Source: Cinnamomum chago (Eukaryota > Streptophyta > Magnoliopsida > Laurales > Lauraceae). Taken from it: DNA of 64,000 bases. Made by a program: the position numbers and the translations under genes. The stretch lies in contig CP142459.1 of the NCBI GenBank assembly GCA_038049695.1, positions 71,480,501 to 71,544,500 of the forward strand, written 5' to 3'. The notes under the pieces are model-generated. The model did not search any database, was not told the DNA's origin, and was given only the letters and a program-made list of their open reading frames with translations. Shown here piece after piece: positions 2,735 through 53,000 of this stretch; positions within the stretch are counted from its first letter, which is position 1, and each line of letters starts with the position of its first letter.

Positions 2735-3728
2735 CTGCATCATGTAACCAATATATGTTACAATAAAATCTATCATTCGATAAATCATTTTTCTTGATTA
2801 AAACTAATGTAACTTGTATTTTTATGCATATTAATACCAACATTTGCCTCTTTTTAACTTGGATCAGTTTAGTTTCTAATAATGGAACTGGAGATGCAAG
2901 TGAATAGACTTGATTGGAATTTTTGTTGGTTGGTACGTTAGGATAATTTTCTCCTGCACTCGGTAGTCCATTCGGATCGGTGTCAATTGTCTCGAGGCCC
3001 CTGTGAAATTCAAGGGCTTCCTGCCTTTGGGGACGGTCCAGATGAGTGCTATGCGCATGAGAATATTTTCATTGCTACTTAGTACCAATTGAGGATCATG
3101 GATCACTCTTCAACAATATCCAGAAGGAGCAGAGTTGTAACAGTCAGTACTAGGATGCTAAAATACCTTTGGAGAAGCAGCATATGCAAAGGCTTCACCC
3201 AAAGAAGGCATGTTTGATGGGCCAGGAGATGTGGGGCCACCAAGTGTGGGGTTCTGTAAGTGTAGGTGTGGGTCCGAAGATAAGCCCCTCCACTGGATCA
3301 ACGGATCATATACTGAGTGCATAGGAGCCCTGCAAATAGAAAGGAGATAAAACAAATCTACAAGGTTCATTGGATGCTTAAAACTTTGAGAAATCAGTGC
3401 CCCACTAATTAATGTAAGGTGATCAAAGGGTTCATAGTCCATACACAACTCAAACATCAGCACAAAGTTTGATCATGCATGATGATCATAGAAATCTTAC
3501 TTTCCTTTCTTGGGTGGTTCAGATTTCATCAGAGACGATGGGTGGAAGTTGGATGGCATCTGTGGCACCCAAGTCATTTCATCCTGCCAATGAGAAGGGG
3601 TCTGGAAGTAATTAATAAAACTTACAATAACATCAATCAAACTAATAATCAACCACACATTAGCAGTTACAACTTACAATGGCACGGCTGTAGGCATTGC
3701 CCTTAATGTGAGGAGGCAACATTGACCC

Positions 3729-5266
3729 TAGGGCTGTCAAAGGGCTGAGCCCGGGCCGGGCCGGGGTAAGCCCTTACCCTACCCTCATATATGCGGGCCG
3801 GGCTTAGGTCATGTCAAAGCCCTCGAAGCCCACGGCGGGCCTACAATATTGAAGCCCTTATCCTACCCTCAAGGGTCAGGGCCGGGCTAGGGTCGGGCCA
3901 GGGCCGAAAAAAATGATTATTCTTTTGAATATTATCATATATAATTATTCTTCTATACCATAATGCCAACCCATCTTTATTCGAGGGGCAATGTAAAAGT
4001 CAATCTTTTTGTAACACTTCTAAAAGAATGCACAAAACAAGTTACTTCATCATTTTATAAAAAATATTAGTTAGGATTAAATGAAATAAGGTAATGTGAT
4101 AGTATTGTGACATGAAACTAGGAAATACACTTTTAAATACCTTAACATACTAGCAGTAGTTACATAGTTTAAATAATGTGCTCGATTTTGTTTGTTTTCA
4201 GTCTTAATAGTTTAAATAATGTGCTTGGTTTTATTTGTTTTCAGGCTATTATTAAGATTGTCATAGTTGAAGTTTTGCTAGTTGTTGTCTTTTTTACTAG
4301 TTCATGTTCTATATATTTTTATAAAGCGATAATGTGAACCATGAGAACATGTTTGGCAAGTCGTGTCTGATTCAATTAGATTTACTTTAAATACGCATTG
4401 GACTTATTCCAAATAAATTATTTGTATATGTGGTTCAAATAAACATTTGACCACTCTTGAGTTAGCATTAGCCCTAACTTGTAACTCTGCGAAAATCACC
4501 CTTGGATTTTATAACAAAACAATTAAACTTTGAATACCGAAGATGAATGACAAAGATGATTTGATTCATGAGTCACAAATTTTTAACTCCAGATGTGGGA
4601 TCCACATGAATGAAACAACAATAGTAATAAAAGTAAGGGTATATAAAGAAATTGGCATCGATCAATAGTTAGTGGTTGAAAGTCAACCTCACTTAATAAT
4701 AATGTTAATGATCATCTATCTAAACTCTTAACCTTCAATAGTTTATATTGGTGAAAATCAATATGATGAATGACAACTTGAATTTCCTTTTCATTGAAGA
4801 ATATGTCCGTGTTAGGCAAACATAGAATCAAATATATCATTCATATGATAACATAGAATAGAATTAAATATAGGTGGCAATATTGTGATCTATGGGGATA
4901 TCCATTAAAATTCTTTCTAAGCCCTGGTTATTATTGTTTGACAAAATATTAAGTCTCTATCATTAATTGCTAATTAGAGGAGATCTTTATATATATATTT
5001 TTAAAAATCACTATATATAAATATATATTCTATATTATAAATATTATTTGTTTTATATATTAATAGACAAAGGGCCGGGCCGGGCCCCCTCGGGCTTGCT
5101 AACTCAAGCCCTAGGTCGGCCCTCAAGGTTGCGGGCTTTTCAAAATAGAGCCCTACCCTACCCTCCCCTCGGGCTTTGGGACAAAAAGAAAAGCCCTCGC
5201 TTTTAGGGCTTTTGCAGGCCGAGCCGGGTCGGGCCCCCTCTTCAAAGGGCCAGATTGACAGCCTTA
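3729..5266. mobile_element. Non-autonomous hAT transposon inside an exon
   Basis: The element starts TAGGGCTGTCAA and ends TTGACAGCCTTA (reverse complement TAAGGCTGTCAA). It is flanked by a perfect 8-bp duplication, ATTGACCC, at 3721-3728 and 5267-5274. Eight-bp target duplications and GC-rich subterminal GGGCCGGGCC blocks at both ends (3,745-3,900 and 5,070-5,250) are typical of plant hAT elements. The 1.1 kb centre is AT-rich and encodes no transposase. Leaving out the element and one duplication gives an unbroken 25-codon minus-strand exon (3678-3728 plus 5275-5298) with good splice sites on both sides. Confidence 0.9.
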
Positions 5267-5524
5267 ATTGACCCTACATCATAGCCGTCCATTTTCTGCT
5301 GTTAGAGTGTTGATGATCAGACCCCATGATCAAGTCCCATAACCAAATATATGATAGTAAAGTGTAATTAATAACAATCAAGAGAAATTTGGGTCTCTCA
5401 AAGAGATTTAACACCTCAAGAGGAGTTGGTCCCATGTTGAAGGGATCTTCCGGCAGATTGAATGGCTGCATTGTTTGTGTGCCCTGGCCCACCACTCCCT
5501 TCAATCAAGATGGTCAAAATATTT

Positions 5525-5686
5525 GAGATTAAAAAGATTGAAGATCCCAACAGTCTTGAAGGGAAGGAGAAAATGGGTACCGTTGGATGGTTGGATGGAT
5601 TGAGTGAGATTAAAAAGATTGAAGATCCCAACAGTCTTGAAGAGAAGGAGAAAATGGGTACCGTTGGATGGTTGGATGGATTGAGT
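5525..5686. repeat. 81-bp tandem duplication across a splice donor
   Basis: Two adjacent 81-bp copies (5525-5605 and 5606-5686) differ at one base. In the minus-strand gene model each copy includes the end of the exon, its GTACCC donor and the start of the intron, so the donor itself is duplicated. The unit is a multiple of three (27 codons). Near-identity shows it is much younger than the exon-pair duplication in the same gene. Confidence 0.85.
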
Positions 5687-7091
5687 GTGGTCTGCAAAGA
5701 TTGCGATGGTGGTGGTGCCCTGGGCCTGTGATGGCCTTTTAACATCTGTTTCATCAAAGCAGGATGTATGATTAGGGTCCATGATCAATCAAATGTAGAA
5801 GCATTGGCATTTGATTAGATTAGAGGGATTAAGGAGGGGAGCAAACCTTGTGCATGGGAAAAGGTGGTGGGGCCATCTCAAATGGATGAGTAGTTGATGG
5901 AAGGCCCAGAAAGCAGATGCTGATTCTCGTGCCATGCTGCAGCGTTTGCGAAACTAGGACGGCCACTGGGGTCAAGTGGGGGAATGAAGTTGGGGACCTC
6001 TTGCACTCGAACCATCCTACATACATTAATAAAAGAAAATCTTGCACATCTTTTTCATCATCAATATCTAGTCAAGGGGTCTTTTTTTCGTCTTTTAGAA
6101 AGTCTCACACGGCTGTTTTACAGGATTTTCAATCGTTACCTTTCTCATGGATGGCCGAGAGTGAGTTCCTCTCATAATTAAAATTGGCTCTTATGTCGGT
6201 GAAACGTAAACCGAATTCGGTTTGGAGAAGGGAGAGTACAATATGAATAGCTTGGATATGGATTTTAGGAGTTGCCTTCGGTAACAAAGAAGGCCTTTGG
6301 GTCTCATTATCTTGGCTTGAATAGTGTCAATTCAACTGATAATTAATCCATTTTTGTCTTAATTAGTCATGCAATAAGCCCGGATTCATTACATCACAAT
6401 CTCATTTGCGGGTTATTTCATTTTTATTTAATTTTATTTGTGAGTGTTTTTTATGAGAGATGGTTCCAACAGTTCAGATTTTAGTAAGTTTAAATAGGTG
6501 AGTGTTGAATCCAAATACAACATATCATTCCTCGTAATTGTTATACAAATAATCATACAAAGATGATGATGATGAATAATATAGACAATATACCTTGTAG
6601 ATGGCACCGGCGGGGATCGCTTTGATCTGAACTCTAAAGGATGCGTAAACCCCTCCATGAAATCAATCTACAAAATGATTAAAATTCCAAACAATATCAA
6701 GTTTTCAGAAGTTTAACAAAGGCCAATTTCCTGTTAACAGGTTTAAATTCTTGGGGTTTTTGGAGAAATTGTGGCTACCAATGAGGTTACTTTAGAGTAA
6801 AAAGGCAAAAGACCAAAAGATCCTCTCATTGGCAACAAATGACTGCCCAACCTTTAATCTTCAACTTTAAATGTCAAACTAGTGATTGCTCAATATATGG
6901 GCATCACCCATCTTAAGGGAAAATGTATTAAAAAAAAGGGAGAAAAAACATGTGCCATGTCAACATATATAGCAAGAAAGGCTGTGGATGGGCCTAGGGT
7001 CTTTCAATGGGCTCGACCTAAATCCATGTAATGGTGTAGATTAGGAATCACAACATTAACCCCCATAGACTTGTATCATACCAGTTTGTAT

Positions 7092-7259
7092 TTATATAAG
7101 GAGATGCTCGTATGAGAAATATCTCTCAACTTATATAAGATATAGGGGTGGGGGCCCTCACATTTAAGTTATTGGCATTAGATATGGGCGTAAGGGCCCC
7201 CGCTTAATCTCTCATTTAAGGTAAGAGATGTCTCTCATAGGAGCATCTCCCTTATATAA
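7092..7259. mobile_element. Foldback MITE (hairpin)
   Basis: The left end TTATATAAGGAGATGCTC and the right end GAGCATCTCCCTTATATAA are near-perfect inverted repeats. The match continues inward with gaps (ATGAGA..ATCTCT and GGGGGCCC blocks), so nearly the whole 168 bp could fold back on itself. There is no coding capacity. TA-rich flanks hide any target duplication. Confidence 0.6.
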
Positions 7260-10200
7260 TATACATACCATAAATAATGAACAAAGCAATATTACCCTAC
7301 AACAAACATAAGCCGTAGAAATGTATATCTTCATAAGTTTCTTAGATTCTTTTTATGAATTCGGGCTTAGTCTGAAAGCCTATATCTAAACACTCAGGCA
7401 TATCCATTTCCCAAATGAACTCATTCAGATCCAGACTAGGTTCACATTAGACCCTGACCAGGCAACATACACATGTGAGCCCAGCCCAAATCTATCCCGT
7501 GACGGTGTGACCGATTAACGGGTCGCCACATGTGAATGAGACTAATCTTTTTCAGGCCTGAACCCATCTCAAAAGCCCAAATCCTAGCCCCTATGAAACC
7601 CATTGTGGGCCGGGTTGGGTGGGACTCTGGCTGGGCCAGGCCATGGCCATGAGCCCAGATAGACATTTTCTATAACTAAAAAAAAGGACAAACATTGCAA
7701 TCTACGTGAGGATATGCATGTCTTAAAATAAGGTTGGGCCCGACCTTTCTTTTCGAAACACGTGTCCAGGGACCGTGGTGCGTTTTCTCTCGCTCTCTGA
7801 GTCTGTCCTCAGTCAGTCGGTCCTCACTCGCCTAGAGACGTAGAGTTCATCGTTCCCTAAAAATACCCCCAGGAAAAACGAGAATTACCAAAGGCATGAG
7901 ATCAGATAACTGGTTTGGTGGCAGGTCAGTTGTGTAATTTACTCACTTCTCAAGTTTTTTGGGCTCCTGCTGTTCTTCCTCCACTACTTTACCCTAAAAA
8001 TGAGAAAAAGAGAATGTGAATATATTTTTCATAGAAAGATTATCTACTTCAAGGTTGTTTGCTCCATGGCTGCTGAATTTTTTCGAGCTTATGTCTAGAG
8101 ATTTTAAAAGTGAAGGATTAAAGGCAAAAGTTTTTAAAAGATGTTTAAACAAATGCCTCTTTAAAAGAAAGTCTATTCATTTAAGTCTTAATAAGATAAG
8201 TTTTTAAAAATAATTCATTTAATCTACATCTTCACTTAAAATCCTTCACTTTTCACCATTTTTTTATCTTATTTTGATAAAGCTCTCTTTATAGTGAAAT
8301 CAAAGGAAGGCATTACCACACATAGATATCATTTCATTTTATTCTTATTTTCTTTTACCGTAAGGATGAAGAGAAATAATTTTCATATATTTTTCCACAA
8401 GTTCACATCATAGAGTGTGCATAATTTGCAGCAAATCATAAGCGAAAAAAAATTTGTGAGTAAAAAACAAGAAATAATATGGACAACGAAGAAATAGCAA
8501 CCACTTTCAGAAATTTTGAAAATCCCCAAAGTGAGCTCCCCATTTTTTTGGTTCCTCTAAAGGATATGGATATATAAATATAGGTAAAATAAAAACATAG
8601 AGCAAGGCCAAATGAATGGACCAAGTTGCCAGGGATTTTGGTGGCAGCCTAGGACAGAAACATAGAATCCAAGAGAGGTGTGGGGAGCATTGTCACGCTT
8701 TCCAACTTTACCTTCGTTTGTGACCTGTGAAGATGCATGCATGAATTTGTGCATGCAGAGAATGATGTAACAAAGGAAAGTCAGGGTTCTACCCAAAATA
8801 AAAAAAAATAAAAAAACCAAAGGAAAGGCAAGGGATTAACCTTCATCCAAGATCAGTTAATCAACTAATCTTAAAATGGTAGCTAGTTATAATAAGAAGA
8901 AATACAACAATGAAAGAAGAATAAAAAGCAGAAGCAAGAGTTAGGTTGACGAAGTATCCATTTAATCTCAAATAACAAGCATAGCAGAGAAATTGAGAAA
9001 TTAAATTATTTTTCAATAAAAGAAGAGCATGTTCATTAGATAAATGCAGAGCTCCAACAAATTAATTGAAATAATACGAAGAAGAAGAAGAAGAAGTTAC
9101 GGTGGTGTTGGTGACAAAACAGCAGCAGTAGAAGAAACAAAAGATGATGATGATAAAGAAGAAGAAGATAGAAGGAGACGCATGAACCAAATAATAGGAT
9201 GATACTAATATCTCACATAACAGAGTCAGATTAATGAAAAGAGCAACCACCTCTTCTATACCACGAAGCAATGTTTAGAAAAACAACTGCGTATAAGCAC
9301 CAATGAAAAAAGATGGGGAAAAGAGGCAAAGAGTGCCCCAAAGGAAAGAATGCTACCACAGAGAGGAGGAACTAATGAGCTATTTATTAAGCGGAGTGGG
9401 AGGTTATTTCTTAATTAGTATAATAAATATATTGGTTAAAGTTATCTTCAGTTAATCTCATTATTCCGTCAATGCCCCTTGTTATAACCAAGTTTTTCTA
9501 TTTGTATAGCATTTGACAAAAACTATAAATACATAATAACCCAGTTTTGACAGACAAGATTGATGCAAAGTGAGCGCCTACACATGCTAGGGAGAAGACC
9601 GTTTGCATACGTATGGAAGATGACTCAGGAATCAAGCATTGGGCGTTCAGGTGAGAACAAGACTCTCAACCACTAGACTATTCCTTTATTCAGAGAATGT
9701 CTCATTATCATACCATATGCGTACTCAACATTTTAGCTATTATTTTTGAAAGGATGATCTCACTAATAAATGATGTAAATTTATAATCATTAATAATTGT
9801 GTCGGATTTTGTCGGAAGTTATAGTTCGATGAAACGTCTATTTACATTTTGTTCGTCGATAGATCTCATATTTGTTTTCTACAAGAGGAAGAGAGAAGAA
9901 AAGAAATATATTATTGAGGAGTGGGCGCTCCATCCAAAAAAGAGTATTCAAAAGTATTTATACTACCTTTACTAATGCCTTGACATTTCGGTAAGAATGA
10001 TTAGCTAAAGAAATTTAATACATCTATGGATAGAAAGGACAAGTGACGGTGAGAATACACACTCGAGCCATGAAAGCACTGTTCACAATTTATTAAAGTA
10101 TTTTCCTTATTGTTGGAATTGATTTCAAATTTAGAGATTTTCAAGTTCCAACACTAGACTTCAAATTAATTCCTCAACTATTGAAGAAACTAAAAAAAAA

Positions 10201-17780: not shown

Positions 17781-17909
17781 GGGCGTGTTTGGCACTTAAC
17801 TAAGTTAAAGTGAAGTGAAGTGAATCTAAATAAGAATTGACAAGGGTCATATCAAAAGTACACAATTTCAACATTCCCTCCATCTTTTTCAAAAAAAGTA
17901 ATAAAAAAA

Positions 17910-19212
17910 AGGGGATTTAACGGGAAAAACCCTCTAAAACAGGCTATTAATGAATTTGGCCCCAATAGAAAAGGCCAGACAGAATAGGCCCTAAATTGAT
18001 GTTTCTCTTTTCTTTTTTGTCTTTTAGCGTATAGTCGATATCGACGCTCTCGCCTGAACATTCATTCGTCTCTTCCTCTCTCTCTTATTCTCTCTTGCTC
18101 TCTGCAACTGATCTCAAATCATAATCTTTGAGAAGGAGGAAGAAGGAAAGAGAAAACTGGTAGGTGTCTGCAGATGAGATGCATGGAGATGGAGGTGTGC
18201 GCAGGGGCTGTGAGGGCGGAGTGCAGCAGTGAAGGAGGGGGAAACGAGAAAAGAAGAGGAGAAAAGAAAGAGAAAAAAAAAGGAAAGAGAGGGAGAAGGA
18301 AGGAAGAAAGAAAGGACGTGTGCACTGGCGTGGAGTGCAGTGGGTGGCAAAGGGTAGTGCAGGGAGAAAGGAGAAGAAGAGGGGGAGAGGGGGAAGGAAG
18401 AAAGAAAGAAAGAAATGAAAAAGGAGGAGAGCCATCTCAGTGGGGTATGCAGGTGGTTGTGCGGTGGCCCATCACGGCTCATCTCCTTCATCTCATCTTC
18501 ACCATCCCAGGACGCAGACAGCAGACCTCTCCCTCCTTCTCCTTTGTCCTCTCCAGCCAGCCAACCCACCACTCCTTCATCCTTTCCATCTCCCTCCCAT
18601 CAACCTCCATCTCACCCTATCCGTAGCCCTCACGCATCTCCCTTATCTCCACGCAGCCCATCATCAGCTCTTCTTCATCTCCATCTCCACGAGGAATGGA
18701 ATGCAAGTTCGGAGTCCTTAAATCGATCATTTAATTGTATCCATATCAAGCTGGAGGTGTTTTCAAATAAAGCCCATGAAGGTGTTCGATGAAATGACGA
18801 AGAGAAAGGAGAAGGAAATTTCACGCTCATTTTTCTTGTTTTTCTCATGGGAAAGAAGTCTGCTGCTGTTGTGGGGTTTGTCCTTCCTTGATTTTGCTCA
18901 CTAGGAGATATTGGATGAAAGGAATTAGAGAACATGAGTGGGGTTTTCATTTCTTGATTTTTGTAATTTTCAAACATATTTCATGTATATATATTTTGAA
19001 ATGTAAGGTCAATACATAATGAACTTGTAATGTTGTGAATGGTTTCCCCCTATTTGAGATGTTTGAAATGTGTTTGAGGAGTTTGAAATGTATTTGAAAT
19101 GTCCGAACTCTTGAGCTTTTGAAATGTCTGAGTGAAGGGTCGAAACCTCCCCACCAAAACTCTCTACTATGACGTTCAAGGATGAAATTGGTATTGGTTG
19201 AATCGGTGGAAG
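17910..19212. repeat. Left arm of the long inverted repeat
   Basis: Pairs with 21020-22300. It contains a purine-rich tract (about 18,215-18,425), pairing with a pyrimidine-rich tract in the other arm, and one partial palindrome ATAGTCGATATCGAC at 18031. Open frames on both strands (Ser/Pro-rich one way, Lys/Glu/Arg-rich the other) result from this low complexity and from the pairing. I do not treat them as genes. Confidence 0.85.
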
Positions 19213-19890
19213 CATTTTTTGGAAGGGTGATGCAAGAGTCAATGTGAAATCTTTTTTTGTTGGTGTTAATAGTTGGTGCTTATGTGATAGAAGATGCAGC
19301 CGTTCTGTATAGTGTACAGTCTATTGAAGCATTTTTTGGAAGGGGGATGCAAGAGTCAATGTGAACTCCTTTTTTGTTGGTGTTCATATTTGATGTTAAT
19401 GTGATAGAAGATGCAGCCGTTCTAGACAGTGTACAATCTACTGAAGCATTTTTTGGAAGAGGGATGCAAGAGTCAATGTGAACTCCTTTTTGGTTGGTGT
19501 TAATATTTGGTGTTAATGTGATAGAAGATGCAACCATTCTGGATAGTGTACAGTCTACTGAAGCATTTTTTGGAAGTGAGATGAAAGAGTTAATGTGAAC
19601 TCCTCTTTGGTTGGTGTTAGTATTTGGTGTTAATGTGATAGAAGATGTAGCCTTTTGGACAATGTAATCTCTACATGGAAGAGATTTTTTGGATGGGGGA
19701 TGCCCATGTTAATGTCATCATGTCCATTTTTATTGGTGTTAATATTTGGTGTTAATGTAATTGATAGAAGATGTAGTCGTGATGGACTTGCACATTTTGT
19801 TGAAGCATTTTTTGGAAGGGCACAAGTGTTAAACATACTTTTTCCTTTTATAAAGATCACCCTTTTTTGGGGTTATATGTTATTGAGAAC
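19209..19890. repeat. 117-bp minisatellite, six units
   Basis: Units begin with GAAGCATTTTTTGGAAG at 19209, 19326, 19443, 19560, 19678 (altered) and 19802. The first spacings are exactly 117 bp and the later ones 118 and 124. Since 117 is a multiple of three, the minus strand reads as a 39-residue repeat with a CIPLPKNAS core; the spacing is in frame for the first units only. Confidence 0.9.
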
Positions 19891-20020
19891 TTATCTATGA
19901 TAATATAATAGTTGTTTGTATTGTCCCGCTAATGATTTTTTATTTTTTTCCACTTTTATTATTGAAAATGATTAACAAACCACATCTAGAGCTACACTTA
20001 GTAAGTTATAGTATTATAAC

Positions 20021-20302
20021 ATAGTCGATATCGACTATGACTGTGTTTTTTATGTTTCAGCTAAATAGTCGATATCGACTATGACTGTGTTTTTTATGTT
20101 TCAGTTAAATAGTCGATATCGACAATGACAATAGTCGATATCGACTATGACTGTGTTTTTTATGTTTCAGCTAAATAGTCGATATCGACTATGACAATAG
20201 TCGATATCGACTATGACTGTGTTTTTTATGTTTCAGCTAAATAGTCGATATCGACTATGTCTGTGTTTTTTAGGCTTCAGCTAAATAGTCGATATCGACT
20301 AT
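20021..20302. repeat. Array of 18-bp palindromes at 22/44-bp steps
   Basis: ATAGTCGATATCGACTAT, its own reverse complement, begins at 20021, 20065, 20109 (one mismatch), 20131, 20175, 20197, 20241 and 20285. The steps are 44, 44, 22, 44, 22, 44 and 44 bp. The 44-bp units share the spacer GACTGTGTTTTTTATGTTTCAG and the 22-bp steps have only GACA. Partial copies sit in both arms, at 18031 and about 22168-22183. Each palindrome has two symmetric CG sites. It may be a protein-binding array or simply a satellite. Confidence 0.95.
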
Positions 20303-20633
20303 TGGTCGTATTAAACAAACCAGAGAATGATACATTCCATTGTACTAAACATTGTTCTGAATACATTGGTACATTCCATTCACACATTCAATTAACAACC
20401 ATACATTAACATACCATTCAATTTCAAATAATTATACATGAAGTTTCACAATATAAATCCAACTGCCCAAAACCATAGAAGTTCCACAACCACTGCCCAC
20501 AAGTTCCACAATTTCAATTACGAAGTAAAGAAAGTAAGTATCTATGTTTGGCCTCTCCTTCTACTGCCCAAAAAACCTTCCCAAAACTTCTTCTAACCAG
20601 TTAAGAGAATTACATCAAACTAGCATTCACTTG

Positions 20634-20840
20634 TCAACTTCTTTTAAATAACTCAATGACAATTCTGCTACGGAAGTAAGGGATGTCAGACTGTGTAAAT
20701 GTGATAGGACGACAGTGAACACAATGCTCCGCGAATGCCACAGTGAAAACTTCGTAGTCATTACAATTGTCTTGATGATGAATGTCTTCCTTAAACAGGA
20801 TAGTCCATAAAAATGGATTCGTCCAGTACTTTATTTAAAT
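20634..20840 (-). pseudogene. C-terminal remnant of a Ulp1-type (C48) protease
   Basis: The minus strand reads YWTNPFLWTILFKEDIHH, then QDNCNDYEVFTVAFAEH, then RPITFTQSDIPYFR and a stop at 20634-20636. This is the layout of the Ulp1/SENP protease C-terminus, where the family has Q-x-x-x-N-D-C-G-V-F followed by an AEH helix and an ITFTQ-DIPYFR segment. The catalytic Cys-Gly positions here read Tyr-Glu, so the fragment cannot be active. Upstream frames are closed by stops. Such genes are carried by some Mutator-like and CACTA transposons of plants, which fits its place in the loop of the foldback element. Confidence 0.55.
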
Positions 20841-21019
20841 CGTTGCTAGATACCATGGTACAAATACTGGCTAGTTCATCATCTCTACATGAAAGAGATG
20901 TTTGTTAATAAAACACAATGCTACATATATTAATGAAGATGGGTACTACATGAAAGTAATGGGGAAAACATTAGTATAGAGTTTTGGTGGAGAAGGTTTC
21001 ATCCGACTCATTTCGCAAC

Positions 21020-22300
21020 TTCCACTGATTTAGCCAATACCAATCTCATCCTTGAACGTCATAGTTGAAAGTTTTGGTGGGGAAGGTTTCAGTCCTTCAC
21101 TCAGACATTTCAAAAGCTCAAGAGTTTAAGACATCTCAAACACATTTCAAACATCTCAAATAGGGGGAAACCATTATCAACATTACAAGTTCATTATGTA
21201 TTGACCTTACATTTCAAAATATATATACATGAAATATGTTTGAAAATTACAAAAATCAAGAAATGAAAACCCCACTCATGTTCTCTAATTCCTTTCATCC
21301 AATATCTCCTAGTGAGCAAAATCAAGGAAGGACAAACCCCACAACAGCAGCAGACTTCTTTCCCATGAGAAAAACAAGAGAAATGAGCGTGAAATTTCCT
21401 TCTCCTTTCTCTTCGTCATTTCATCGAACACCTTCATGGGCTTTATTTGAAAACACCTCCAGCTTGATATGGATACAATTAAATGATTGATTTAAGGACT
21501 CCGAACTTGCATTCCAATCCTCGTGGAGATGGAGATGAAGAAGAGCTGATGATGGGCTGCGTGGAGATAAGGGAGATGCGTGAGGGCTACGGATAGGGTG
21601 AGATGGAGGTTGATGGGAGGGAGATGGAAAGGATGAAGGAGTGGTGGGTTGGCTGGCCGGAGAGGACAAAGGAGAAGGAGGGAGAGGTCTGCTGTCTGCG
21701 TCCTGGGATGGTGAAGATGAGATGAAGGAGATGAGCCGTGATGGGCCACCGCACAACCACCTGCATACCCCACTGAGATGGCTCTCCTCCTTTTTTCATT
21801 TCTTTCTTTCTTTCTTCCTTCCCCCTCTCCCCCTCTTCTTCTCCTTTCTCCCTGCACTACCCTTTGCCACCCACTGCACTCCACGCCAGTGCACACGTCC
21901 TTTCTTTCTTCCTTCCTTCTCCCTCTCTTTCCTTTTTTTTTCTCTTTCTTTTCTCCTCTTCTTTTCTCGTTTCCCCCTCCTTCACTGCTGCACTCCGCCC
22001 TCACAGCCCCTGCGCACACCTCCATCTCCATGCATCTCATCTGCAGACACCTACCAGCTTTTTCTTTCCTTCTTCCTCCTTCTCAAAGATTATGATTTGA
22101 GATCAGTTGCAGAGAGCAAGAGAGAATAAGAGAGAGAGGAAGAGACGAATGAATGTTCAGGCGAGAGCGTCGATATCGACTATAGCACTAAAAGACAAAA
22201 AAGAAAAGAGAAACATCAATTTAGGGCCTATTCTGTCTGGCCTTTTCTATTGGGGCCAAATTCATTAATAGTCTGTTTTAGAGGGTTTTTCCCGTTAAAT
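21020..22300. repeat. Right arm of the long inverted repeat
   Basis: Reverse complement of 17910-19212, with its own purine/pyrimidine tract (about 21,790-21,980) and the partial palindrome near 22,168-22,183. Outside 22,300 the two arms diverge for about 150 bp before the matching outer termini. Confidence 0.85.
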
Positions 22301-22648
22301 CCCCTAAAAAAAAAAAACCTACTTTTTCCACTAAAAAAAAAAACCTCTACTTTTCTATACAAAAAGTCAAAAAGATTCTATATCCAACAACTAAAAATAA
22401 AATATCATCATAATACCTTATATTTTATTCTCTCTTAATTTGACGCTTCACCTTACTTCACTTCAATTCACCGTACATCCAAACAGGCGCTTGACATTAT
22501 AGCCAAAGATTGAACCTAATTGTTAACTATGTGAAAGGGTAAGGGAGCAAACCACCTACCACAAGGTATTAATGATACATGATGGATAAAGATGAAGATT
22601 TGAGTTTAACTCTCATCACTACTGGTGCAAACTACAAATATATGTATA

Positions 22649-23848: not shown

Positions 23849-25030
23849 TGGGTGTGAATGCTATAGGAAAGGAAGCGAGTGGAGGAACTTCAAACTTCAT
23901 TAACAAATCAAGTACAAGTACAATTTTTGTCCAATCTCTTCTAAACTCCAGCCCCCACAGGGGCTTTCAGTTTCTCTGGGATGGTAGACTAGAAGTCTAG
24001 AAACTCTTTAGTGGAGCCTAACTAATGAAAATCTAAATTTTTCAAAATTTATACCCTCCCATTTTAGAGGGTTCATTCGAATTTTATCCCTATGTAAGTC
24101 GGTCCCATAGGAATAATATATAAGATTGTGTTTATCACGTGTTTTTTTTCTTTTTTAATCAGAATGTCATTTCTAAAGTGGTATCCAACTTTTATTGGGA
24201 TGAAATTTGGATATATTTTATCAACAAATAGAGCATTTATTTTGAACCAATCAGATTTTTTTTCTACTATTTCAACTCAAGAATTATGTAAGACAAAGCC
24301 TAAAAGTATGATCTCGGCTCCAGGCCAGCTCCTCTTTTTGAAGCTCACCTGCCGCGTCCCTTGTTTTTAACTTGCTGAAAGTGGTGTGAAGCTTCTTCTT
24401 CTTGCCTTTGTGTCTTTGCATCTATGAATAGGAAAAAGAATAAAGAAAAAGGACATCATGCCCCCAACCACTTTTGTCCCAAAGGAAGAAAGAGTGTGAG
24501 ATACAAGAGCCTGGGTGGCCCTTTCCTAGTAAAGATGTGCTTTCAAAAGCATGGGGGTGGTTTGGTGGGACCATCCACACCAATCATGCTTCTTAACTAA
24601 TTAATGTTTCTGACTTCTTCTCACTTCAAAACTAAAATCAATTATAGTAGTTCTGTAGATGCAACACAAACTGGCCACAAGAGTGGACGGGATGGATGAT
24701 TGGGGCCTCCATTTTACCAAGGCTTATAAATGTGGCGAATTTGAAACAGATGAGTTGTGTGGCCAATTTAAAAGAGATTCAAACTGTACACTCATTATGA
24801 ATAGATTTAGAGAACAAAAGGGAAAGGGAATCAATTCTATGTACCTAAGATCTGAGTACTAACCAAGAGTCGTGATCCTCTGAGGCTTTTAACTTAGACA
24901 AACCTGAGTTTTTCAGAATAATAATATTCAATAGATGGCCCAACTACTAAATTCAAAGAGTTCAAAATAAATGCCCTCTGGATATATCGGGTAACCTCAC
25001 ATTTTAGGTCAATCCAAGTTTCTTAACCAT
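23849..25030. other. Intergenic, no gene seen
   Basis: AT-rich sequence without recognisable genes or clear repeats; it leads into the tandem array. Confidence 0.5.
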
Positions 25031-27369
25031 TGGACTGACAGGTTGATGAGAAACATGATACGAAATATGCATAAGATAGAGTTAATCAGTTTTTACATTA
25101 AATAGTCAATCAAATAGTAGAAAAGACTTAAGATTAATGTAAGATTTAAGCACACCCCATATAACCGAAGGACGTTAATTTTGAACATTTGGATTTCAGT
25201 AGGTGAGCTCCATTTTTATATTCCACTCATATAACTCAGGATTTCTATAGGCTAAGGCCTCCAGACTCCGGATTCACTCACAAAATGAATAACTGATTAA
25301 CCGATCATTTCAATTTTAATCGGTTTAGGATGAAATGTGGAACACATTTGGATTGGACAAAGGCTTGAAGTTGACGACATTAACGGGTACAATGGAGCCA
25401 ACAAACTTATGAGTTGGACTGACAGGTTGATGAGAAACATGATACAAAATATGTATAAGATAGTGTTAATCAGTTTTTACATTAAACAGTAATCAAATGG
25501 TAAAAAAGGCTTGATTAATGTAAGATTTAAGCACACCCCATATAACCGAAGGACATTCATTTTGAACGGTTTGAATTTCAATAGGTGAGCTTCATTTTTA
25601 TATTCCACGCATATAACTCAGGATTTCTCTAGGCTAAGGCCTTCTAGACTCTGGATTCGCTCACAAAATGAATAACTGATTAACGATCATTTAAATTTTA
25701 TAATCGGTTTAGGATGAAATGTGGAACACATGGGGATCGAACAAAGGTAGGACTTGGTTGAAGTTGACGACATTGATGGCTACAATGAAGCCAACAAACT
25801 TATGACTTGGACTGATAGGTTGATGAGAAACAAGATACGAAATATGCATAAAATAGTGTTAATCAGTTTTTACATTAAACGGTCAATTAATGGTAGAAAA
25901 GACTTGATTTGATTAATGTAAGATTTAAGCACACCCTATATAACCGAAGGACGTTAATTTTGAACGGTTTAGATTTCAATAGGTGAGCTCCATTTTTATA
26001 TTCCACTCATATAACTCAGGATTTCTATAGGCTAAGGCCTCCTAGACTCCGGATTCACTCACAAAATGAATAGCCGAATAACCGGTCATTTAAATTTTAA
26101 TCGGTTTAGGATGAAATGTGGACCACATTGGGATCGGACAAAGGCTTGAAGTTGACGACATTAATGGGTACAATGGAGCCCACAAACTTATGAGTTGAAC
26201 CGACAAGTTGATGACAAACATGATACGAAATATGCATAAGATAGTATTAGTCAGTTTTTACATTAAACAGTAATCAAATGGTAGAAAATGCTTGATTAAT
26301 GTAAGATTTAAGCACACCCCATATAACCGAAGGACATTCATTTTGAACGGTTTGAATTTCAATAGGTGAGCTTCATTTTTATATTCCACGCATATAACTC
26401 AGGATTTCTCCAGGCTAAGGCCTTTTAGACTCTGGATTCGCTCACAAAATGAATTACTGATTAACGATCATTTAAATTTTATAATCGGTTTAGGATGAAA
26501 TGTGGAACACATGGGGATCAAACAAAGGTAGGACTTGGTTGAAGTTGACGACATTAGTGGTTGCAATGAAGCCAACAAACTTATGAATTGGATTGACAGG
26601 TTGATGAGAAACATAATACGAAATATGCATAAGATAGTGTTAATCAGTTTTTACATTAAACAATCAATCAAATGGTAGAAAAGACTTGATTAGTGTAAGA
26701 TTTAAGCACACCCCATATAACCGAATGACGTTAATTTTGAACAATTTGAATTTCAATAGGTGAGTTCCATTTTTATATTCCACTCATATAACTCAAGATT
26801 TATACAGGCTAAGACCTCCTAGGCTCCGGATTCGCTCACAAAATGAATAATTGATTAACGATCATTTAAATCTTATAATCAGTTTTTGATGAAATGTGGA
26901 GGAACACATGGGGATCGGACAAAGGCTTGAAGTTGACGACATTAATGGCTGCAATGAAGCCAACAAACTTATGAGTTGGACTAACAGGTTGATGAGAAAC
27001 ATGAAACGAAATATGTATAAGATAGTGTTAATCAGTTTTTACATTAAACAGTCAATCAAATGGTAGAAAAGATTTGATTAATGTAAGATTTAAGCACACC
27101 ACATCTAATCGAAGGACGTTAATTTTGAACGGTTTGGATTTCAATAGGTTAGCTCCATTTTTTTATTTCACTCATATAACTTAGGATTTCTCTAGGCTAA
27201 GGTCCTCTAGACTCCGGATTCACTCACAAAATGAATAACTAATTAATGATTTTTTAAATTTTATAATTGATTTAGGATGAAATGTGGAACACGGGGGGGG
27301 GGGGGGGGGGGGGGGGACTTAATTGAAGTTGACAACATTAATGGCTCCAATGAAGCCAACAACCTTATT
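25031..27369. repeat. Tandem array of ~390-bp units with A-B dimers
   Basis: Six units start at about 25031, 25415, 25808, 26196, 26589 and 26977, marked by GACAGGTTGATGAGAAAC and followed by CAGTTTTTACATTAAA and GATTTAAGCACACC. Lengths alternate 384, 393, 388, 393, 388 and about 392. Units 1 and 3 share TTCTATAGGCTAAGGCC, and units 2 and 4 share variants such as CACGCATATAAC and an extra ACTTGGTTGAAG near the end. The array is thus built of ~780-bp dimers. No coding frame runs through it. Confidence 0.9.
27293..27316. repeat. Run of 24 G within the last array unit
   Basis: The run replaces the segment that in other units reads TGGGGATC..ACAAAGGTAGG. It may be a real slippage expansion or an assembly or base-calling artefact. 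Confidence 0.9.
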
Positions 27370-44078: not shown

Positions 44079-47000
44079 TTATTTGTTTGACCAATGGAAT
44101 TCAATCTCCAGGTTCCTAGGGGGGCCGCTTTTGCTAACAGGCAGCAGTGGGTACTCTCCAGAAACTGCACCCAACATAACGACTTGGTTGATCTGAATTA
44201 TCACTTTACCGAACGAGCTCTGTCATTGGATGAAAAAAAGCAACTTGGGTCATATCTCTAGGAAGCAAAACTGAAAAATGAGTTGCATGAAAAATGTTCT
44301 ACCTTCCCCATTTTGTTCTTATTCTTGCAAGAGATGTGAAGCTTCTGGCCTTTAGGAGGGCTGTCAAATGACCATGCAAAGCTTTCATTCCATTCAGGTG
44401 TTGATCCAGTCGACAGAACCTGATGCACACATTACATTACTAGTGGAATTATGAGCAAATGAAAATGATCTCCTCAATTGATATGTGATTAAAGGCTTTG
44501 GAATCACCATGTGAAGTTCTAACTAAAGCTTAAAAAAATACAAAAATACATCTAAAAAATGTAAGATCTACTCTTATATGGTTGAATTAAGGGCTATAAG
44601 CTCCACAGTTTTTACCAATGCATGTTCATAATTCACAGACTATATGCTGGTTTTCAAGGCTATTTTTTAAAATTATGTTTCCCATATTTTGTTTGAGATC
44701 ATCTGTCAAGAAGATTCGCGACCACAGCCGAGTATAGGTTACCTGGAAACATTAGTTTATCTTATTCTGAGAAACCATTATGCTGCGTAGTTATATGAAC
44801 TAAAACCTTTAAACCTACTACAAAGAGGACTCAAGCTTTATAATAGGCATGACTGCCTAAATGGTCATCTATCTTCAGCAATATCTCAGTTCCACCGTCC
44901 ACGCGTAAATATTTCAAACATGATAGAACTTAACCAGAGCTCTTGAATATATTATCAGTCCCACCTATGTTGGAAAGTACTTTCTTAGATTAAGGAAAAT
45001 ATATGTTTTTACCTCAGACTTACCTTAGTTTGCCTTGGTTGAGTGTTGGCAAGCTTGAGCTTACAATAAGCGTTGGGATTTCCAACAGATTGCTTCAAAT
45101 TGTTGCCACGCTTTATAATAACCTTTAGTGTCCCTGGTAAACAATGCAAAAGGTGTTCTGCCTTCTCCTGAAACCTAGATGGGCCTGATTGAATTATGTG
45201 CTGCAGTGAAGGAATTGCCTCTGCAGCCGTGACTGACTGAACTTTATAGACTTCAGCTGGGCATGCTGGCCATGTCTGTCTCAGAAGGAAAAGTGAATCT
45301 AATGCTGCTTCTTGAGTTGCCTCAGTACCAGCTTTTAAGTTCTTGATCAGATGAGGAATAATGAGTGTGGCCGGCTCTGTTGCTCTCAAACGCGGGAAGC
45401 TACTAAATAATGTATTTAAGGCTCTCAAGTACTCCTCATTCACAGTTCCAGCGGCACATAAATCCTTTTCAATAACAGCTTTTATAAACAGAAATAGATA
45501 AATTAGACACAGCAAGAAGATAATGCATGTAGGAAAAGAGGAAAAATGCAATTGTCTTATCCAAATAAAATAAACTGAAGCAGCTTCCACCCCAGGAGTT
45601 TACAACAGAAACGAGTTAGTACTCATGCAAGAGAATAATAACAAAGTTCATCTATTTTGCTACTAGCACTACTGTACCAAATGACTAAACATTGTTTGTT
45701 CTATAACCCTAAGCGAGTAATGTCCACCTTCGATGGTCAAAACCTGGTGGTTGGAGTTGTGGACTTGTTGGAAATTCTCTCCCAACAAATTATCTAACCA
45801 TTCATCAGGTCGAGTCTTCCTGTTAAATGTGAAGCACTGGTTGTGCATTAGCAACTCATGACGAACACGTGCATTTTGGATTGATGCTCCATGATCAATG
45901 AAACCAATTAATGAACCATCTACTTAACCATGTGAACTCTTGTAATTTTACTCATAAGAGAGTCAAGATTCTTATCAAAGAATGAGATTGTTAACTACAC
46001 ATATTTTCAAGAGGACAGCCTTCATACAGGATACATCTGGACCAACTCATTGAGACCACTGTTGAGGTCAACGTCCACCCTTGCTCCTGAGCGGTCATAA
46101 ACTCATAATTGTGGTGAGCCCTTGCCATCACCGTAAAACCATTGTTGTGCCATCTCCCATCACCAATTGGTTTTGGGATAAGTGATAGCTCAATGGGGTG
46201 TAAGATCCTACAACCACCTATGGTCAATCCAACTCCCTCACACTCACTGCTCCCCACCATCCTCCAGCACCTACTTTTCATATGCTTTTTTCTAATTAAA
46301 ATTCATGCTTATCATGATCAGAGTAAGTTGTTTTTTACGTTGGTCAAAACATCAGCCCTGCCAGACCTTCACAATTAAGGTTTCAAGCCTTCAAAGTTTA
46401 ATGGTTTTCAAGTATGTAGTTATTCTATCATTCAATTCAAAGATATATTTTTAGTTGCTAAACACAAAATCAAATAGTTAAGGAACACATACCGCTTATA
46501 GCTCTCACTGTTTCGCTAGAAGCATATTCTTGAAGAGTATGGTTAGAGAAGATGAGTTTTACTAAAATTGCTGCCTGAACAGATGTATCTGGGTCACCGG
46601 AACTGACAAGGTCTAGTACCACTTGAACTCCACCAGCTTCTGCAACTGCTCTTTTATTTGACCAGCTATACGTGACAAGGTTTTGCAAGGCACAGATGAC
46701 AACTAGCTTCATTTCTTCTTTTAGCTGATCCTCAAGCAGATTTACGAGGGCTCGACAAGCTGAAACAGCATCAGTAGACCGAGCAAGTGCCTCATTCTGG
46801 AATAAATCACCAAGGGCAAGAGCTGTTAACAACCTTGCCTCCTGAGCTTGGGTTTGTGAATCCAGAAGGTACTGGGATATTGGCAAAATTGCAGACCTAG
46901 CAGCTTGTGTTTCTCTAATCTTCACATTGTTCAGCAATGCTTCCAGCAGTCTTGCTGAAGATTCCTCACACCGATGAGACATAAGAAGTTCCAAAAGTGC

Positions 47001-50000
47001 CTCTATTGCACCACATTCAACCATCGCCTCTGCACTGGTTGCATCATCTCTTTCCAGCACAAGTAGCGCATTTATTGCACCAACAACTGTAATTTCCATG
47101 GCTGAATGAAGTAACCTTACCAAAACTACAATTGGTATCTCCAAATAAAACTCAGAGCTAAACTGCAAAATACTAGATAAAACGCATGCAGCAGATTCCC
47201 ACAAGGCATGAGGCAATGAAGAGTCAGGTTGCAATATTATTTTTGATAGCTCCCCAACACCATTCTCTTTCACGATCAAATTTGGCCAAGTTAATGCAGT
47301 GCTAACAAGTGCTTTTATAGCTCCCTGTTGCAGTATGGATGTGCCCGATCGAAGAATCTGAATTAGGGGACGGATTGCTTTCTGTGTTATCATATCCTTC
47401 TGTAGATATTCTTCCATTAGTAAATGGGAAAGAAGTTCAGCTGTCAGCTGCTGCACTGCCTGATTTGGTGAATCTAATAAGTAGATAAGTGGCTCAATAA
47501 CCTGATGGGGTGTTAGGCTATGTTCAGCACGACATTGAGGATGCTCCAAAATATTAACAAGAACTTGTAAAACACTGTGCTGTCCATCATAACAAAACTC
47601 AGGTCTAGCTAGCAACAAGAACAGGGGATCCACCAGTTTTGCTGCTGATGAGCTCTTTGCAATGGTGGTATTGTTGGTCAATATCATTAGCAACTCAGCA
47701 AAAGCAGCACAAAGAAAATTAGGTGCAGCGTCGAGAACATCAAGTATTCTTTCAATGGTTCCAGCTTTTACCATATCCATCTTGCAAGCAGGTCTTCCTT
47801 TTCCCAACTTAACTAGAGCTCTAGAAACAGACTCATGAAGTGCATAATTTTTACCAAACAAAAGACTGGCAAGAGGAATGACAGCACCATGTGCAGCAAC
47901 TAGTTCTGCTAAATCCTCATCATCCAATAGTTTATGCAGTGCACAGACCACTGAATACTGAGCTGGGCTGAATGCAGCTAGAAGTAACGACACAAGAGGC
48001 TCCACACATTGAATTGTAGCCATTGAAGACCTGGTTTTTGTGTTTTCAAAAAGTATGCAGCACAACTCAGCAGCATCTCCTTTCAGCTCCATTGAACAGT
48101 TCGAGGAAAGAATTTGACAGAGGACATCCACTACATTCATTTCAGCATCTGAAACAGCAAGGATTCTTGATGGGTTTCCACACAACAACCTAGTAATAGC
48201 AGCAATTGCAGCATGTTGCTCCTTCTCCAAACCAGTATGAAGGACCTCAACAAGTGGTTGAATGGCTTGCCAAGCTATTTCTTCATTCCTAATATGGTCT
48301 GAGGAAAATAAGAACTCCAATGCTTTAGCTGCACTGTACCTAGAATTCCTGCCACCCAAATGTAGAACTGCAACAAGCTGGTTGACAGCACCATAAGCAG
48401 ATTCATGTTGCCTAATTTCAGCACTTGTAAATAGCATCCCCAACAAGTTTGCTGCTGCTTCTTCTGTAGCATCCCGTGGACCAAGTGAAAGATACTTGGT
48501 CAATGCTTCCAGAGACCCAGCTTCTACCATCATAAGCGTGTTTGAGGGGCTATCCTTTGCAAGCTGGGTCAGGAGCCCAAGTGCAAAAGAAGGTGCGCTG
48601 GGACGGTCTGGAATCGGTTTGAGCAACTCAACAAGAGAAGGTATTGCTTTCCGAGAAGTTGCACCTACTCTTGTATCATCAACTTTGAACAATTTTTCCA
48701 GAGTAACTAGCTCTGGATTGCATACCAAACCAAACTCCTCTGACAGTTCCAGAAGATCAGATATATTGGCCTCTGAACAGCCAAGCATGGATATAAGTGC
48801 ACTGGCCGCCCCAGAATTGGCAATAGCCAGAAGTGTCCCTCTGCTACCATTACAGGCAAGACAGGCCAGTGCTTGTGCTGCAAAATATCTATCTGCTGAC
48901 TCCCTTGACTTCAACAAATCTGCAAGTACATGAATAGATTGCATGGTCGCATGTGATCGAATGATATCTCTATCTTGAAACAGCACTGCGAGAAGCAATG
49001 CACAGACCCATGTACTACTGCCACCTTCAAAATCATCCTGCATTATTTGTATGCATATAAGAAAAGAATTTTTTACACCTACTTCACCACAACTTTAAAA
49101 CCACAACAACAGGTAATAACAGTAAAGACAGATTGTGCAAATGCTCAGGAATAAAGCCATTCACCACTTAAAATAGCTCCCTTCTACAGCAACAAGAAAG
49201 CTAATTATAGAAATCATGCAAAATACCTTAGCAGCTTGAGACATATATTTAGCAGTTTTTTCTGTGAGCACATTAACAGCTTCAGCCTCCACAGTTGCAG
49301 TTTTGCTTTTGTCATCGTGACATGCAAGTTTAGAAAGTAGCCATATTGATACAGTGTCACCCAAGATCACAGGTGTGCTACATTCGGTTTTATCACATCT
49401 CTTTTGTCCTGCAGTATACCTGGAAATGATTATGTCCTTGATATCATGGTCCGCATGAGAATGTGCCAAATTGATCATATTGACGAGAGATCGAATGAGA
49501 TTCAAGAAAAAGCTTGAATCATTTAGGGCTTTTACAACCTTCTCTTGATGCTCATTCACAGCACAAATAAGAAGTGCAGTACCCCCAACCTTCACTTTTA
49601 TGCAATCACTGCTAATCACTCGTCCTGTTATTGATGATATACACCCAGAATTGCTAGCTATAGTGTTCCCCAGAGCACCAGACTGATCTTGGCAAAGCTT
49701 AGACAATATTTCTATAGCTTTGTCCTGCAGCAAGGGTGTTCCGGAAGCTAAGCATGAAACTAGTGGGAGTATCGTGTGAGGATGCTCAGCGAGGACTGCC
49801 CATACAGGTTTTACATGGCCACTAGCTCCTTCCAACCTTGACAATAGAGCAAGTGCATCAAGCGCTTCTGATGTCGCAGTAGCTTCAATACCAGAAGACT
49901 CCAGAAGAGAAACTAGCTCAAGCATTGTTCCTGCACAATTTACACTATTAGAAAGTCCATGGTCAATTGGGCGAGAGTGAACGAGGTGAGCAATTGCTGC

Positions 50001-53000
50001 TGCAGCGTGTGTCCTTCCATCAAGAGTGCCATCACGCAATACTCTAGTTGCAGGAAAAATAATCTCTTCAGGAAATGCTTGCATTGAGATCTCAGTATCC
50101 AAAAAAATATTCGCCATGGCCCGTGTTGCTGATTCGGCAACTCCTATAACAGAAGAATTCATAAGCACAACTAACTGAGGAAATGCATCTCTACCAACAG
50201 CAGCTACGTCCTGATTTTCTTTAATGGAAAGGAAAATAGAAGCAAGACAGAATGAAGACTCAATCAATATTCTTTCAGAATCCACATTAAGCAGCTTCTT
50301 GACTGACTGAACTGCCTTGACAGCAATGCTGCTTTCTCGCAAGTCTTTCCGGCAAGCAAATAGTGCTGCAAGAACTGAGACTGCCGTAACCTGAGTTTCT
50401 TCCTTTGTAGAACTCAACATTTTTATAATTGTTTCAATGGCATCATTGGCAGAACTCCCTTCATTTAATATGTCATTAACAGAAAAATTGGAAAGCAGAC
50501 TTCTCAGTGCATCCAAAACATAAACTTTAGACTCAGGCATATCACTGGTAAGTAATGCAGTGAGTTGACTAATAGTCATAGTATCAGATTTATGGATTAC
50601 ATGATTCAATGTCTTTGCTGCAATCTCTTTTCCATCTTGACTTCCATTTTTCAACAACCACAACAAAGCAGGAAGGGCATCAGCACTTTCGACACATGCT
50701 CGTATATCTTCACTGTGACTACATAGGTTTCCAAGAATTTTTGCCGAATCTTCCTTTGCTCTAGCAGATCCTGTTTCTAAAATTTGAACAAGAGGAGGTA
50801 TGCCCCCAGCAGCAGTGATAGCCCATTTACTTTCATCATTCTCATTACATAAAAGACAGAGCAATGCAACCACACATTCTTGCTGCTGCTCTGATGAAAC
50901 GCCAAGAAGAGAGATTAACAGTTGAACCCCCTGGCGACCTTGAAGTGCATACCATAGACTACCATTGTTGTTGCAAAGAATGATCAAAGATCTCATAATC
51001 TCTTCCTGAACCTCATTGGTTGTCATGGTAATCAAACCAACAAGCAACTGTTTCGCATTGGAATTTGTTAGCTTTCTAGAGAATAAATTGTTTCCATATA
51101 AGCTGGCTAGGGCTTCAATTGTATGTTGCTGCACAAGAAATGGTAACTGTGGTTTAAACTGTTCAATCAGTATCTGTTCAATAATGAGAGGGTTTGATGC
51201 TCTTGTAGCCTGTGCTTTGCTATCATATATCATAAGGGCAGAAGCTAAAGCCCCTAATGTATCAGCAACTTGCACAGGGGAAGTGCATGATTTAAGGCTT
51301 TCACCAAGGCTTGAGATGACATACGACAACCCACCTGATATATTTGACAGTGCACACATTGCATTGTCCTGCAGTGCTTGGGCATGCTCACCTTGCATGA
51401 ACTCTTTTGAAGGGGCTATGGTAGCATTTATCAATGCAGGAATCCCATTAGAATTAGCTAGCTCCCCTCTTGCTTCTTTACACTGTGCAGAAAGAGATTT
51501 AAGAGCACCTGCTGCTTCTGCTCTGACTGAGGCTTCATTGACAGGTGACAGTAGCTTGAGGAGTTGTTTAGTAGCATCTGCAGCTAAGATCCTAGGACAA
51601 ACTGAAGAATCTTCCATCATCACACGTGCAAGAAGAAAGCAAACATTTTCTTTGGTCTTTGAATCTCCTGGTGCAAGTAACTTCATAAGGATATCCACCC
51701 CTCCTGCTTCTGTTGTTGCAGGCCAAAATCCTTCAGTACTGCCAGAGAGGTTTCTCAAAGCTCCAGTGAGTAGATTAACAACTAGGCTTTCAACTCTTAG
51801 CCCATTTTGCAGCTGCTGCCACAGAACAGAAACAACTCCTTCAGTTGAGAAGATCTTTGATCTAACATGATCCTTTGATCCACCTTGAGATACAGCATAT
51901 ATAGTCTTGGCTGCAGCAGTTTGACCTTCTGCTGAGCTGGACTTGAGGAGGCCAAGCAGTGGTGGAATGCAACCCCCAAGCAATACTTTTACCCTCAGTT
52001 CATTCTCCTTACAAAGAGAGCCTAAAACAGTAGCAGCCTGCATCTTAACTCCAAGTGGTCCAGACCTAAGAAGAGACACAAGGACTGAAATTGCTTGAGA
52101 GTGAGATCCAACCGCACTGAAAGTATTGTCTGATGTGTTAATAATATCAAGCAACTGCTTTAAGGAGTTTTCTTTCTCTTGCACAGTTGAAGAACTGCAA
52201 CACAGCAGCTCAAAGCACCGGGCAACAGTTGCTAAAGTCCCATCTGGATCTTCCATGCGACCACACTCCCTGCTGGTATAAGTTGCATGAGTTCAGACCA
52301 CAAAGCTTCAGTTGTAAGATTATGACTTAGATGTAAACATGACATAAATAAATACGAAGGCATATCATAACAAGTAAAAATGTGACTAACAAATTCATAC
52401 GACTGTCAAACAAGCTCATGTTTTACCAGCTGTAACAAAAACTTCCAAAATTGAGAAAATATATGAAACTCCTAAAGGAAAAATATATTAAATTTTTATT
52501 CATTCTATAATCCACATTCTGCAACCTAGAATCGCCAAAACCTCCCCTGATATATTCAAAGTGAGTTCAAAATATGCTCAAGATTTAAGGTGATGACTAC
52601 ATAAGACTGGTAACTGGCCAACACACCTTATGAAGTCATGTCTGTGAAAAATATATTACACTGATTTTGTTTCAGGAAGGATTTCATTTTCTGTATAAAT
52701 TTAAGAATGAAGACTCCACTTACTGCATTTTCAATTTCCATCATTTTATGCGGTTAAGACTGAAGACTCAGGATAGATCAGAATGGGAAAACAGAATTCA
52801 TGTAGCCAACCCGAATATAGTTGGGACAAGGCTTTGATGATGATGATGAAGCATTTTTTGTGATGAAATGCATTTATCTAGCAATGAGGTACCAATTCTA
52901 TAGCACATACATTCGAATATGCTTTCCACAAAAATCAGAGATATAACCCAGAAAATCAAAACCACAGAAAATGTCATTACAGAACAAAGGAAAATTGATC

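Follow-up and report, generated by a model that had tools for sequence, protein, structure and literature searches.

A foldback-shaped element of 4,394 bp in the genome of Cinnamomum chago (Lauraceae) is very probably a non-autonomous Mutator-like element (MULE) with terminal inverted repeats (TIRs) of ~1.3 kb, which inserted into an older miniature inverted-repeat transposable element (MITE), was most likely moved by relatives of ~12 kb, was amplified in bursts, and has arms that partly exchange sequence. It is located at positions 17911-22304 of a 64,000-nucleotide stretch (contig CP142459.1, positions 71,480,501 to 71,544,500 of the forward strand; hereafter the window, meaning the whole stretch that was analyzed), begins with GGGGATTTAACGGG, and has a 9-bp duplication on both sides. 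It is an already known kind of element, a MULE, whose notable features are a loop-proximal segment spared from homogenization, and palindrome arrays that are shared with coding relatives.

Structure and boundaries of the element

The two arms (Table 1) are near-identical, as an earlier note on this DNA had claimed: 17910-19212 and the reverse complement of 21019-22305 agree at 96.7% over 1,306 columns (1262/1305 in a second alignment), with a longest mismatch-free run of 261 bp. The same note had set the limits of the element at 17781-22490 and described its outer ~150 bp as diverged arm termini, both of which were misreadings. Plotted by position, divergence between the arms is concentrated on the loop side, the reverse of the pattern described, with 0-2 substitutions per 100 positions over arm positions 1-1100, and 7.4 and 9.0 in the innermost 200, where there is also one 19-column gap. 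The outer pieces of 130 and 186 bp align with each other only in segments of at most 34 columns, and when joined, minus the second duplication, they form a 307-bp sequence with copies elsewhere in the genome (40 near-full-length matches at 88-91% and 1 partial, the 41 coming from 40 scored of 4,849 candidates). Diverged termini were therefore rejected in favor of an unrelated older transposon, split in two. The element inserted into the A-rich middle of this older MITE, duplicating 9 bp there. The interrupted sequence is likely a Harbinger-type MITE, because the part of PMC4423477 consulted gives GG(G/C)CC termini and TAA/TTA targets for Harbinger. A PIF/Harbinger (Tourist-like) MITE should have a short TIR and a 3-bp TWA duplication. 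The flanks in the window are TTA on the left and TTG on the right, and in a more distant, uninterrupted copy (locus L034, 75-79%) TAA appears at both ends only if the right one is set 2 bp beyond the alignment.

Other copies with the same ends were sought in the genome (1.06 Gb, 14 contigs), whose plant-type domains and many MULE places fit a plant, and in which each of the ten contigs checked is a whole multiple of 2,500 bases long. Of the 336 candidates found with a 601-bp arm probe, 40 were scored, all 40 of which matched, and 28 loci were fetched from these. Both termini and the two-armed layout are shared by 26 of them, which together with the window element make up the 27 elements analyzed here; the other two, L035 and L036, were dropped with one terminus each. 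Homology between the fetched loci and the window mostly stops within ~20 bp of 17910 and 22305, and these breaks, together with the 9-bp duplication, define the element proper. The clear exception is L031, where homology reaches 17887 and 22429, and which has its own MITE-like flank. The copy at this locus (3547-7869) is, after the window element, a second one flanked by TAAAAAAAA, and its flank resembles the same MITE family as that of the window. Compared across the fetched copies, the true termini (GGGGATTTAACGGGAAAAACC in the window element) are well kept, and the 29-bp terminus, allowing up to 3 mismatches, occurs 214 times genome-wide (111 forward, 103 reverse), with none in either orientation for a reversed control.

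A perfect 9-bp target-site duplication, as in MULEs, flanks 24 of the 27 elements with both ends, while alternative lengths from 3 to 12 bp were seen in at most 5 of the 27. These 24 represent 23 insertions, because L024 and L025 have one duplication and flank in common. The 23 duplication strings are 92.8% A+T, as compared with 66.1% in the 300-bp flanks. On contig C3, L024 and L025, along with termini of 12-kb MULEs and places matching the ULP1 protease, recur between ~28.37-28.57 and 28.63-28.83 Mb at an offset of 261,435-261,439 bp, a constancy by which this segment must be duplicated, whether as a real genomic duplication or as one made by the assembly.

Table 1. Window coordinates of the element's parts, its duplications and the interrupted MITE
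Feature	Position	Strand	Basis
Left arm, TIR of ~1.30 kb	17911..19212	+	Arm alignment, terminus
Right arm, TIR of ~1.29 kb	21019..22304	-	Arm alignment, terminus
Outer 135 bp of left arm	17911..18045	+	81% identity to end of 12.1-kb pair (L039); ends in TAGTCGATATCGAC
Innermost ~134 bp of left arm, fixed differences from right arm	19079..19212	+	21 columns, arm positions 1169-1255
Innermost right-arm part, approximate counterpart of 19079-19212	21019..21135	-	Arm comparison
Loop tandem repeat, 117-bp unit, 5.2 copies	19209..19820	+	Repeat scan
Loop palindrome array, 8 TCGATATCGA cores, 22-/44-bp spacing	20021..20302	+	Unit homologous to arm positions 103-135
Loop segment	20819..20973	-	84% over 158 columns to L040, between PMD part and ULP1 place of 12-kb MULE relative
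Target-site duplication, left copy, TAAAAAAAA	17902..17910	+	9 bp, same as 22305-22313
Target-site duplication, right copy, TAAAAAAAA	22305..22313	+	9 bp, same as 17902-17910
Left half of older ~307-bp MITE, GGGCGTGTTTGG terminus	17781..17910	+	Joined with 22314-22490, matches copies elsewhere
Right half of interrupted MITE, including right duplication copy	22305..22490	+	Joined-halves search, flanks

The element is called non-autonomous because it contains no recognizable transposase. A MURA-type transposase was not found within it, although a weak, broken remnant may be present, and the loop holds no open reading frame (ORF) of at least 120 amino acids (aa). Two arm ORFs were tested, neither of which has a Pfam family, and a coding role for them was rejected. 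No host gene fragment was identified in the element, though no systematic search for one was made. Tandem-repeat rows within the arms score only 50-76, strong arrays being confined to the loop. Judging from their sequence, the arms could possibly give rise to long double-stranded RNA; according to the part of PMC10398659 consulted, small interfering RNAs frequently come from the long TIRs of Mutator-like elements.

Young copies and apparent exchange between their arms

The earlier note had proposed that the element is either young or homogenized through gene conversion, and there is support for each. Arms identical between copies were found among five left and six right arms (one such copy being a duplicated locus), 6 of the 27 elements are exactly 4,355 bp long, and 8 of 17 listed but unfetched pairs are exactly 4,342 bp. 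Because of these near-identical copies, we conclude that the family has been amplified recently and in bursts.

With left and right arms assigned by loop orientation, a tree of all 54 full arms clusters lefts with lefts and rights with rights, L018 excepted, and exchange between arms can therefore only be partial. Among the other 26 elements, 21 columns have non-overlapping left and right states, all of them at arm positions 1169-1255, and L018 has only part of these fixed states. When the tree is restricted to the outer ~1,050 positions, arms of the same element are sisters in the window element (95/92), L011 (99/83) and L016 (98/86), as well as in L012 (89/89, below the starred threshold), while the arms of L018 are paired, but at the root.

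Exchange was quantified in a set of 14 representatives that left out L018; four of them each stand for a near-identical group, and ten are further elements. Of the variants present in exactly two arms, 14 were shared by the two arms of a single element (14 possible pairs), and 12 by a left and a right arm belonging to different elements (182 pairs), a ~15-fold excess per pair; the count of 14 was reached in 0 of 20,000 permutations. At positions 1-1100, own-arm divergence was 2.02% versus 2.42% between elements, with 0 of 20,000 permutations as low, whereas the values were 2.63 versus 2.85 (0.17) at positions 1101-1168, and 10.69 versus 10.67 (0.54) at positions 1169-1302. The window element has the lowest own-arm divergence of the 14 (0.73% versus 2.03%). 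By zone, 13 of the same-element variants lie at or before position 1100 and 1 beyond it, which is too few to establish a zone effect on its own. Statistically, over these representatives, the outer ~1.1 kb is homogenized within the element and the innermost ~134 bp is exempt, so that gene conversion is supported, with a polarity opposite to the earlier suggestion that it acts on the inner arms only. Such exchange over the outer ~1.1 kb, sparing the ~134 bp beside the loop, might reflect repair that begins at the tips, or exchange that fails near the end of homology. We found no account of MULE arm homogenization with an exempt inner segment in the parts of the literature searched, though one may be published nonetheless.

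There are two explanations of the shared variants and arm likeness that do without exchange, both of which we consider improbable. The first is parallel mutation at hypermutable (methylated) cytosines. Changes of C>T or G>A do account for 8 of the 14 same-element variants, but the remaining 6 stand against 6 in a cross-element control with 13 times as many possible pairs, and some of the shared private changes, in L012 and L016, are insertions or deletions. The second explanation, to which we likewise assign little weight, is that the arms are alike only from youth, by descent from one element whose arms were near-identical, as could be argued from the several copies with identical arms and from the separation of left and right arms in the full-arm tree. 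By reasoning, however, two separate arm clades would leave the summed left-right distance unchanged when partners are permuted, which is at odds with the outer-zone permutations. The sister arms of the window element, L011, L012 and L016 in the outer-zone tree also speak against this explanation.

Coding relatives and palindrome arrays

Relatives were searched for with a pattern in which the terminal 21 bases were extended by bases that rule out the family of the window element, and 56 and 54 matches were obtained versus 4 and 6 in the control. From 100 listed matches, 20 pairs were picked by eye, 15 of which span 11.9-12.2 kb and two of which sit in the duplicated C3 segment. These were compared with 35 of 150 listed ULP1 (PF02902) places, both lists having already been seen: a ULP1 place lies inside 16 of the 20 pairs, and of the 14 places with the best scores, 11 fall in a pair. 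One pair, C1:12396538-12408591, was read in part, and contains a plant mobile domain (PMD; piece L040; 1e-41 and 7e-10), a ULP1-protease match, and a frame of 399 residues that runs off both ends of its piece (L041), with a MULE domain (PF10551, 1.6e-19) and a SWIM finger (2.7e-9). By pattern match its termini share 20 of 21 terminal bases with the window element. Mobilization by the transposase of such ~12-kb relatives would be most likely, because this one combines a MULE transposase and PMD with a ULP1-like place, those terminal bases, a palindrome at 121 bp, and the 158-bp segment also found in the loop. The transposase was recognized only on reading L041, with a MULE-domain score (70.6 bits) under the range of the best 150 of 3,015 candidates, among which no place inside a 12-kb pair was found by eye. 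The same was true for DBD_Tnp_Mut among the best 150 of 1,395, and for PMD by eye in the genome listing. Compared with NCBIfam, L041 matched only bacterial transposase families, all under their cut-offs, and nothing among solved structures. Among the 150 DBD_Tnp_Mut places listed, about 29 are within an open frame of 714 aa, suggesting that a further MULE family was active recently.

At the end of a second relative, a pair of 12.1 kb (L039, C2:21972891), the sequence resembles the outermost 135 bp of the arm; this pair has no ULP1 place among those compared. An 11.8-kb pair, C3:130829720, was rejected as the autonomous parent, as no transposase was seen by eye among ORFs of at least 90 aa in the part read (L036), where one listed ORF reads like what we take to be retrotransposon sequence. 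On this comparison of sequences, the window element looks like a shortened and rearranged derivative of the 12-kb group, the direct parent of which was not found.

Within the window, the core TCGATATCGA occurs 10 times, all within the element (one per arm and eight in the loop), where 0.07 would be expected by base composition, and the loop unit matches arm positions 103-135 at 28/34. The core is kept in 50 of the 54 arms, and is missing from both arms of L011 and from one arm each of L016 and L018. The full 16-mer palindrome is found 1,201 times genome-wide, with none for a reversed control. Among the first 50 distinct places listed, all on C1, two members of the window family account for 13 (one of these members having only one terminus listed) and two 12-kb relatives for 21, the other 16 being elsewhere. 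Of the 37 spacings below 200 bp, 33 are multiples of 22. Each of these 12-kb relatives has one palindrome 121 bp from its end and the others 7.3-7.75 kb in, and TAGTCGATATCGAC in the window arm likewise begins 121 bp from the terminus. It is conceivable, though we put it forward only tentatively and think it rather less probable than its negation, that arm palindrome and loop array are docking sites for a protein encoded by the PMD/ULP1 MULE relatives, which would be their transposase or else an anti-silencing factor similar to VANC. On this view the non-autonomous element kept chiefly its ends and array and so captures the protein in trans, and its outer arms stay matched through exchange with each other.

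It is very unlikely that the element is a natural hairpin which, like Mu-killer, silences its autonomous relatives. The identical runs of up to 261 bp between the window arms, and the outer ~135 bp in common with the end of the 12.1-kb pair, would suit such a role, but the latter sharing is only 81%, and no match of the element to the transposase piece L041 was found in DNA or six-frame comparison. An inverted duplication or misassembly at the locus, which the earlier note had raised against itself, has a negligible probability and was rejected, given the same architecture in 27 elements and the perfect duplications of 24 of them; no observation in its favor was found.

Several observations weigh against a partly exchanging, burst-amplified MULE that was moved by 12-kb relatives. 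Two elements, L009 (4/9) and L015 (6/9), are without a matching duplication, and L032 matches only 8/9. The relatives were read in part, with the ~140-bp end match stemming from one pair (L039) and the coding domains from another (L040, L041). The full-arm tree groups arms by side, own-arm divergence in the outer zone is above the cross-element mean in 4 of the 14 representatives (L010, L013, L014, L017), and exchange may have been with an unsampled third copy. Copies drawn from 40 scored of 336 candidates for the window probe are skewed to close copies, and L035 and L036, with single termini, were excluded from the fetched loci.

Known systems and the rest of the window

The element has the long TIRs with shared termini of a MULE, and one of its relatives encodes a MULE transposase between ends that resemble its own (L041 in C1:12396538-12408591), whereas its arms are not the short tandem repeats of Drosophila-type Foldback (FB) elements. 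The following comparisons extend to the parts of the cited sources that were consulted. Plant long-TIR MULEs (PMC3310237) are alike in their long TIRs, 9-11-bp target-site duplication and amplified copies, the window element being distinguished by ~1.3-kb arms and a loop with two tandem arrays. Foldback architecture and a 9-bp duplication are also found in MuTAnT of Medicago (PMC4486113) and FARE of Arabidopsis (cited in PMC4486113 and PMC3169594). The distal nucleotides GGGG/CCCC of MuTAnT (PMC4486113) are a further likeness, but 90% of its elements are 200-300 bp and it targets TA microsatellites (PMC4486113). Galileo of Drosophila also has long TIRs, with 98-100% identity within a copy, which were proposed to attract recombination and conversion; it differs in belonging to the P superfamily, with a 7-bp flanking duplication and internally repetitive TIRs (PMC3573991). 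MULEs carrying ULP1 (Kaonashi, and in grapevine; PMC2528002, PMC13317346) or PMD (PMC5418596) resemble the one part-read 12-kb relative with PMD, MULE transposase and a ULP1 place, but Kaonashi is described as a non-TIR MULE, and the window element is without ULP1, PMD and transposase domains. VANDAL/VANC targets (PMC5735166, PMC10398659) are short motifs in dense tandem arrays in non-coding Mutator-like regions; a dense short-motif array is also present here, in DNA presumed non-coding from its position. The VANC21 motif YAGTATTAY is arrayed one way and VANDAL TIRs are degenerate, whereas the window element has a palindrome in 22-bp register and long arms.

Elsewhere in the window, a 388-bp tandem repeat (5.8 copies, 86% matches) occupies 25030-27292. 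Open frames of 857 and 1,031 aa with armadillo-repeat domains lie on the minus strand at 46470-49043 and 49161-52256, and are probably one or two host genes.

The locus illustrates that a nested insertion can mimic diverged termini. A family with many young copies makes exchange between inverted arms measurable, with the exempt inner segment serving as an internal control, and arrays that are common to coding and non-coding members would make it possible to test directly if a protein encoded by the element is recruited by short repeated motifs.

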